Part shown: in pieces, positions 41,337 through 43,384 of the stretch | Layout: each line of letters opens with the position of its first letter | Numbering within the stretch: the stretch's first letter is position 1 | Source: Candidatus Rokuibacteriota bacterium | GTDB lineage: Bacteria; Methylomirabilota; Methylomirabilia; Rokubacteriales; CSP1-6 | NCBI GenBank assembly: GCA_016866775.1 | Contig: VGLJ01000040.1 | Span: 1-43,813, forward strand | DNA length: 43,813 bases | Direction of reading: 5' to 3' | Made by a program: the position numbers and the translations under genes | The notes under the pieces: generated by a model | Seen by the model: only the letters and a program-made list of their open reading frames with translations | Database searches by the model: none | What the model was told of the DNA's origin: nothing

Positions 41337-42050
41337 TTACACAGCCTTCTTGAACAGGTTCGCGAGCGCGGCCGCGTCGATCGTCACGCCCGGCCCCATC
41401 GTGGTGGACATGGTCACCGTGCGGAGATACGTCCCCTTCGCGGCGGACGGCTTCGCGCGCACGATCGCCTCGATCACGGCCATCGCGTTCGCCTGGATGT
41501 TCTCGGGCGTGAACGACTTCTTGCCGACCGGCGTGTGGATGTTGCCCGCCTTGTCGACGCGGAACTCCACCTTGCCCGCCTTCGCCTCGCGTACGGCCTT
41601 GCTGACGTCGAACGTCACGGTGCCGAGCTTCGGGTTCGGCATGAGACCGCGCGGGCCGAGCACCTTGCCGAGCCGGCCGACCTGGCCCATGAGGTCCGGC
41701 GTCGCGATGGCGGTGTCGAAGTCCGTCCAGCCGCCCTGGACCTTCTCGACGAGGTCCTCGGCGCCGACCGTGTCCGCGCCCGCCTCGCGCGCCTCGCGGT
41801 CCTTGTCGCCCTTCGCGAACACCGCCACGCGCACCGTCTTGCCGATGCCGTGCGGGAGCACGACGGCGCCGCGGACCATCTGGTCCGCGTGCTTGGGATC
41901 GACGCCGAGACGGAACGAGATGTCGACGGACTCGTCGAACTTCGCGCCCGGCATGTCCTTGATCAGCCGCACGGCCTCGTCGAGCGTGTAGTGCTTCTCG
42001 GGCTCGAGCTTCTTCGTCGCCGCGTCGTAGCGCTTGTTGAGCTTTGCCAT
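41337..42050 (-). CDS. rplA: 50S ribosomal protein L1
   Basis: Forms the mobile L1 stalk that guides deacylated tRNA out of the E site, and represses its own operon in many bacteria. It is 237 residues. Marks are [40 protein letters not shown] and [18 protein letters not shown], the last being the RNA-binding signature. Its ATG overlaps the rplK stop by one base, the normal coupled pair. Confidence 0.98.
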
Positions 42051-42472
42051 CAGACCACCTCGATGCCCATGCTGCGGGCGGTGCCCTCGATGATCCGCAT
42101 CGCGGAGTCGATCGAATCCGTGTTGAGGTCGACGAGCTTGGTCTGCGCGATCTCGCGGACCTGCTGCGACGTGACCTTGCCGATCTTGTCCTTGTGGGGG
42201 ACGGCGGAGGCCTTCGCGATGCCCGCGGCGCGCTTGAGCAGCACGGCCGCCGGCGGCGTCTTCACGATGAACGTGAACGACCGGTCCTGGTAGATCGTCA
42301 CCACCACCGGAAGGATCAGCCCTTCCTGAGTGTTCGTCTGCGCGTTGAAGCCCTTGCAGAACTCCATGATGTTGACGCCGTGCTGACCGAGCGCGGGGCC
42401 CACCGGCGGCGAGGGGTTCGCCTTGCCCGCCGGGATCTGCAGCTTCACCCTCGCCTGAACTTTCTTCGCCAT
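42050..42472 (-). CDS. rplK: 50S ribosomal protein L11
   Basis: Part of the GTPase-associated centre and target of thiostrepton; also the sensor arm for RelA activation. It is 140 residues: [20 protein letters not shown], with the proline-rich N-terminal segment, and [20 protein letters not shown] in the RNA-binding C-terminal domain. It follows the small KOW gene after 10 bases; normally L11 follows nusG directly. Confidence 0.98.
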
Positions 42473-42482
42473 GGCCTTTCCG

Positions 42483-42665
42483 TTAGAGCGGGCGGACCTG
42501 GCGCGAGGCCAGCTCCAGCCGCGTATGACGTCCGAACACCGGCACGACGACGTGCAGCCGGCCGTCGGCGGCCGCCGCCTCGTCGATCACGCCCTCGAAG
42601 CCGCGGTAGGGACCTTCGAGGATCCGCACCTTGTCACCACGCTCGAATGTCCAGCGCCCGTTCAT
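42483..42665 (-). CDS. Stand-alone KOW-domain protein (extra copy of the NusG C-terminal domain)
   Basis: A 60-residue protein that is almost entirely one KOW domain. It aligns throughout with the end of NusG next door: [16 protein letters not shown] here against GDKIRVIEGPFQNFQG there, and [11 protein letters not shown] against PVFGRPTPVEL, both followed by a short xxQVxxL end. Its ATG stands directly after the nusG TAG with no base between and in the same frame, so readthrough of one stop would give a NusG with two KOW domains. GGTGGAG about 10-16 bases upstream, inside nusG, could serve as its own ribosome site. NusG's KOW domain binds S10 and Rho, so this protein could compete for or add to those contacts (inference). 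Confidence 0.9.
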
Positions 42666-43196
42666 CTAGAGCCGCTCCACCTGGTAGTACTCGAGCTCGA
42701 CGGGCGTCGGCCGCCCGAAGACGGGCACGATCACCTTCATCCGTCCGCGCTCGGGGTTCGTGTCCTCGACCGTGCCCTGGAAGTTCTGGAACGGGCCCTC
42801 GATCACCCGGATCTTGTCGCCCTGCTGGAACACCGACTTCGGCTTCGGCTTCTCGGCGCCCGTCGCCATCTGCCGCTGGATGTCGTCGACCTGGTCCTGC
42901 GACAGCGCGACCGGCTTCTGGCCCGAGCCGACGAAGCCCGTCACCTTCGGCGTCGAGCGCACGAGGTGCCACGTGTCGTCGGTGAGCTCCATCTCCACGA
43001 GCACGTACCCGGGGAAGAACTTCTGCTCGGTCTCGCGCTTCTGCTTGTTGCGGACCTCGACGACCTTCTCCGTCGGCACGAGCACCTGGCTGATCTTCTC
43101 GCCCATGCCGAAGATCTTGGCGCGCGACTGGATCGCCTCGGCCACCTTGTTCTCGAAGCCCGAGTACGTGTGGACGACGAACCATTGCTTGCTCAA
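42666..43196 (-). CDS. nusG: Transcription termination/antitermination protein NusG
   Basis: Binds the RNA polymerase clamp through its NGN domain and S10 or Rho through its KOW domain, linking transcription with translation. It is 176 residues, the normal length. The NGN domain covers about 1-110 (WFVVHTYSGFENKVAEAI; FFPGYVLVEMELTDDTWHLV) and the KOW domain 122-176 (GDKIRVIEGPFQNFQG). All expected parts are present, so the following small KOW gene is an addition and not a piece split off. Its ATG overlaps the secE stop by four bases. Confidence 0.98.
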   Translation of the reverse strand: MSKQWFVVHTYSGFENKVAEAIQSRAKIFGMGEKISQVLVPTEKVVEVRNKQKRETEQKFFPGYVLVEMELTDDTWHLVRSTPKVTGFVGSGQKPVALSQDQVDDIQRQMATGAEKPKPKSVFQQGDKIRVIEGPFQNFQGTVEDTNPERGRMKVIVPVFGRPTPVELEYYQVERL

Positions 43197-43384
43197 CGGA
43201 GGATCCTTTCCACCGCGCGCGCGAGCACGATGTCCACACCGCCGAGGAAGAACGCGAGCGCGACGGCGACGACGATCACCACCACCGTCGAGTTCACGAG
43301 CTCGGCGCGGCTCGGCCAGGTGACCTTGCGGAACTCCGCGAGGACCTCCTGCACGAATTCCTGGATGCGCGCCACGAAGCCCAT
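43193..43384 (-). CDS. secE: Protein translocase subunit SecE
   Basis: The small clamp subunit of the SecYEG channel. It is 63 residues with an amphipathic N-terminal helix (ARIQEFVQEVLAEFRKVTWP, holding the invariant KVTWPSR-type motif) and a single transmembrane helix near 31-52 (VVVIVVAVALAFFLGGVDIV). It overlaps nusG by four bases in the conserved secE-nusG pair. The 56 bases between it and the tRNA gene show no convincing promoter. Confidence 0.97.
   Translation of the reverse strand: MGFVARIQEFVQEVLAEFRKVTWPSRAELVNSTVVVIVVAVALAFFLGGVDIVLARAVERILR

Follow-up and report, generated by a model that had tools for sequence, protein, structure and literature searches.

Results

A second KOW gene between nusG and rplK

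A free KOW gene beside nusG is a real, protein-coding gene of a small number of Rokubacteria from soil and groundwater, with a single origin, within Rokubacteria, in a duplication of the KOW domain of NusG. We refer to it as KOW2 and describe it from the window, by which we mean the whole stretch of 43,813 nucleotides that was analysed (contig VGLJ01000040.1, from a Rokubacterium of the Methylomirabilota). The gene order on the minus strand is secE – nusG – KOW2 – rplK – rplA – rplJ – rplL – rpoB – rpoC (Table 1), with the ribosomal and polymerase genes named from sequence and order and nusG from family search. An earlier note on this DNA had described a complete NusG, with NGN and KOW domains, that ends in TAG and is followed at once, in the same frame, by a 60-residue KOW protein. 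The open reading frames agree with this description, the KOW2 ATG abutting the nusG TAG with no gap, as do the matches of NusG to Pfam NGN (2.4e-32) and KOW (3.9e-6) and to NCBIfam TIGR00922 (nusG; 1.7e-63). KOW2 also lies between nusG and rplK in two MAGs of two other genera (VBPC01000223 and JACPDG010000032), and its presence in independently assembled relatives means that it is neither a chance occurrence nor an assembly slip.

Table 1. Coordinates of the nusG–KOW2–rplK locus in the window.
Feature	Coordinates	Strand	Description
secE	43193..43384	-	Upstream gene of the cluster; named from position and sequence character
nusG	43196..42666	-	176 aa, NGN + KOW; TTG start overlaps the secE stop; TAG stop
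GGTGGAG, Shine-Dalgarno-like	42675..42681	-	9 nt ahead of the KOW2 ATG, within the final nusG codons (QVERL)
KOW2	42665..42483	-	Stand-alone NusG-type KOW protein, 60 aa; ATG start, TAA stop
KOW2 residues 43-47 (VFGRH)	42525..42539	-	Aligned to E. coli NusG I164-F165-G166-R167, the Rho-contact loop, which lies in the S10-binding region
rplK (L11)	42050..42472	-	Starts 10 bases past the KOW2 TAA; directly after nusG in most relatives

The 60-residue product passes the gathering score of Pfam KOW (PF00467; 26.9 bits versus 22.3; E 3.8e-6) and aligns to TIGR00922 only over positions 117-170 of 172, the KOW part (1.9e-13), with a score of 50.6 against a cut-off of 135.7, the NGN domain being absent. 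Its matches to the RfaH, LoaP and UpxY families (19.6-24 bits) lie far below their cut-offs (100-144.5). It is 45% identical to the KOW domain of its own NusG. The proposal that it is a separate protein derived from a NusG KOW domain is supported. No named family for the arrangement was found, as the earlier note had supposed, and no stand-alone bacterial NusG KOW appears in the literature searched, subscription papers being mostly outside its scope.

The nusG–KOW2 junction

The frame shared by nusG and KOW2 is local to the window. In both of the other carriers (G009 and G033) nusG ends in CTCTAG, and KOW2 begins with the GTG of TAGTG, which overlaps the stop codon in a different frame. It had been suggested that readthrough of the TAG could yield a two-KOW NusG, or that the TAG is a sequencing error and such a fusion the true product, as the position of KOW2 in the window, in the nusG frame and straight after the stop, would allow. 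The out-of-frame, overlapping GTG in the two relatives, where fusion is impossible, effectively rules out both alternatives; a TAG followed by a start is seen in three independent assemblies, nusG stops at this codon in many KOW2-less relatives too, and we regard a two-KOW NusG as exceedingly improbable. The CTCTAGTG junction is also present in many of these KOW2-less relatives, where rplK starts there, and KOW2 thus occupies the site of rplK reinitiation. The GGTGGAG ahead of KOW2 lies inside conserved nusG codons (those of the QVERL region are kept ahead of rplK in relatives without KOW2) and is therefore not independent evidence.

Distribution of KOW2

A search of 57 family genomes and 95 phylum genomes recovered a second KOW beside nusG in three: the window genome, G009 (62 aa), and G033 (two copies, 58 aa). 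KOW2 is thus present at 3 of the 39 readable nusG-rplK junctions of the family, several of which were read from tblastn spacing alone; at the other 36, rplK lies approximately 0-70 bases from nusG. Genomes that gave no match at all most likely lack the nusG contig, and G080 was excluded from the count, its NusG being merely 43% identical to that of the window and its contig (C74, locus L077) foreign-looking and probably a MAG contaminant. The nearest sequenced relative of every carrier has no KOW2, and with KOW2 at so few junctions the gene is dispensable.

When KOW2 peptide patterns were scanned against 84,980 species genomes, their only matches were the two relatives within Rokubacteria, an ordinary NusG from Syntrophobacterales (L088) and another from Fimbriiglobus (L089); both NusG proteins were rejected as candidates. 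Because such a scan misses unrelated cases, restriction to Rokubacteria can be stated for this protein family but not for free KOW domains as such. Viral contigs gave no KOW2 matches; those in phages and plasmids were less than 60% identical, and the annotated ones are labelled NusG or antitermination protein.

In G033 two KOW2 genes lie in tandem (L086:330-682) as a 176-base repeat whose copies differ only near the 3' end, with all of the 16 differences over 177 positions confined to the final 37 bases, in which the first copy ends like a NusG KOW. The pair looks like the outcome of unequal recombination via TCGAGCTCGA, which both copies share, or else an artefact of assembly.

We note several further KOW genes at other loci. 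Another type of free-standing KOW protein, 59-61 aa long, is encoded in G023, G030 and G068, with neighbours named by eye from their translations: between genes for a CoxM/FAD-type subunit and an XRE-cupin-type regulator in G023 (L037:1688-1867) and G030 (L038, about 1463-1645), and after an ABC substrate-binding-type gene in G068 (L076:1403-1588). In G035:C32 (L078, about 1500-1640) a KOW match next to this CoxM-type gene has an apparently broken frame, through either decay of the copy or misassembly. The contig G003:C11 carries a lone 59-aa KOW with the KOW2 signature GPYRG..EG at a different locus (L036:2116-2295), near transposase-like and RelE-like frames, and this is perhaps a relocated relative of KOW2. 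Finally, an open reading frame in G066:C146 (L075:1042-1686) resembles, by eye, a fusion of a Clp N-terminal repeat domain with a NusG-type KOW.

Origin of KOW2

In a tree of KOW domains the three KOW2 proteins form one clade (99/99) inside the Rokubacterial NusG-KOW group, on an alignment of few columns (56) with bootstrap not fully settled; this cleaner tree was used because long branches had distorted an earlier one in which the other stand-alone KOWs were included. An independent duplication in each lineage was rejected: constraining each KOW2 to group with the KOW of its own NusG gives p-AU values of 0.0068, 0.0087 and 0.00015. Seven residues (E8, Y20, R21, G22, E24, R49 and R58) are found in all KOW2s and in none of the sixteen Rokubacterial NusG KOWs compared.

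The three carriers are nevertheless scattered in the tree of RplK, RplA, RplJ, RplL, RpoB and RpoC, within a clade of 21 genomes in which each adjoins genomes without KOW2. One gain and about five losses, or exchange at the locus, would explain this pattern. Third codon positions are 56-58% identical among KOW2s, versus 69-71% for the NusG KOW in the same genome pairs, a difference that NusG codon bias may widen; this greater divergence disfavours recent transfer between lineages.

Selection on KOW2

Over 57 shared codons the KOW2 copies have a mean nucleotide identity of 0.667 and an amino-acid identity of 0.585, versus 0.407 in a neutral simulation at the same nucleotide identity (star tree, no codon bias), and none of 5000 simulations reaches the observed value. 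Invariant codons number 27 of 57 (13.9 under neutrality) and the longest invariant run is 9 (2.6 under neutrality), each again reached in 0 of 5000 simulations. The four KOW2 copies have no stops and no frameshifts, and their indels are whole codons; all copies are free of stops in 21% of neutral simulations. The excess of amino-acid identity establishes that KOW2 is under purifying selection.

Crude dN/dS is 0.46-0.86 for KOW2 versus 0.18-0.28 for NusG, ratios that are rough because third positions are GC-rich, and at the amino-acid level KOW2 evolves about 3-4 times faster than NusG. The lower third-position GC of KOW2 is a hint that it is less strongly expressed. Its fast evolution, its patchiness and the ease with which it has been re-duplicated in G033 would fit a nearly neutral, dispensable by-product, one that folds and is made but is weakly constrained and has no important regulatory role. 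We consider this explanation credible but unlikely, for the invariant codons shared over three genera, with their run of nine, lie far beyond neutral simulation, and the reading frames of all four copies are intact.

Predicted fold and the S10/Rho contact surface

AlphaFold2 models for four sequences (pLDDT 87) predict the five-stranded barrel of a NusG CTD, and the best PDB matches of the KOW2 model are the NusG CTDs of Aquifex, E. coli, M. tuberculosis and Thermotoga (against 2jvv, TM 0.87-0.89 and rmsd 0.8). In NusG a single region of the KOW domain binds both S10 and Rho (PMC7819879), and a five-residue loop with I164, F165 and G166 is key for Rho (PMC7593976). By sequence alignment, on which our statements about the KOW2 surface rest, this loop is VFGR in the window, intact and identical to that of its own NusG, VYGR in G033 and LHGR in G009; the residue aligned with E. 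coli F144 is F, H or F in the three proteins. The genome from which the window comes has genes for both Rho and S10. The NusG proteins of G009 and G010 themselves have VFSR in place of VFGR, a change at the glycine of the Rho/S10 loop.

The net charge of KOW2 is near neutral in G009 and +1.7 and +2.7 in the other two carriers, whose NusG KOWs have -1.5 and -0.5. This higher charge and the three arginines among the clade-specific residues (R21, R49 and R58) could reflect another partner, such as RNA. KOW2 would then have shifted to RNA or to some other ribosomal site, as a small accessory protein that binds the ribosome or mRNA and perhaps tunes the rplK-rplA-rpoBC genes of its own operon. The drift of the contact loop in G009 and G033, the full set of seven residues and the position of KOW2 where relatives start rplK are consistent with such a shift. 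We think it on the whole improbable, as the fold and profile are nearest to NusG CTDs and distant from the ribosomal KOW protein uL24, and the window copy retains VFGR and the aromatic positions.

Discussion

It is the KOW domain of NusG that determines whether RNA polymerase is coupled to a ribosome or passed on to Rho. The reading that we tentatively prefer, and would call possible short of probable, is that KOW2 is a translationally coupled, free NusG CTD whose site of action, in trans, is S10/30S or Rho. Placed ahead of rplK after duplication of the NusG KOW domain, it would probably be translated through reinitiation where nusG stops, yielding a predicted beta-barrel of the NusG-CTD type with no domain for binding RNA polymerase; this barrel may act at the sites of NusG's own KOW, the 30S protein S10 (NusE), Rho, or both. 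Its occurrence in three genera at one locus, with a start codon at the nusG stop or overlapping it, favours action as a trans NusG CTD, as do its single clade, the purifying selection, the predicted fold, the VFGR of the window copy and the presence of Rho and S10. The drifting loop, the variable F144 position, the clade-specific arginines and higher charge, the many junctions without KOW2, the fast amino-acid change and the lower third-position GC count against this reading.

KOW2 might further compete for S10 or Rho, as the earlier note had proposed, and behave as a weak decoy that sets the share of NusG tied to ribosomes or Rho versus free. That a lineage-specific free NusG CTD, reinitiated from the nusG message, sequesters S10 or Rho and thereby adjusts transcription-translation coupling in proportion to NusG synthesis seems to us a doubtful extension, which if true would make KOW2 a natural anti-coupling factor. 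A natural free KOW from the nusG message, if made, would be a ready reagent and a natural experiment on competition in trans, and would show how multi-KOW arrangements can begin.

Among known systems, KOW2 is closest to the NusG CTD (TIGR00922; PDB 2jvv, 2kvq and 6duq), which it resembles in sequence family, in its predicted five-strand barrel, in its origin from a Rokubacterial NusG KOW and, in the window, in the VFGR loop. It differs in being encoded alone, with no NGN domain or linker, in its seven clade-specific residues, and in being more basic in two of three copies. RfaH, LoaP and UpxY likewise arose by duplication of NusG with divergence of the KOW domain, but they retain the NGN domain that binds RNA polymerase; lacking it, KOW2 cannot ride polymerase as they do. 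The ribosomal protein uL24 and MutS2 also have a KOW or SH3-like barrel that touches the ribosome, although uL24 has only distant sequence similarity to KOW2, and MutS2 carries its KOW within a large protein. Spt5 shares with the KOW2 locus the presence of more than one KOW, yet its KOWs lie in one polypeptide, whereas the second KOW at nusG is a separate protein.
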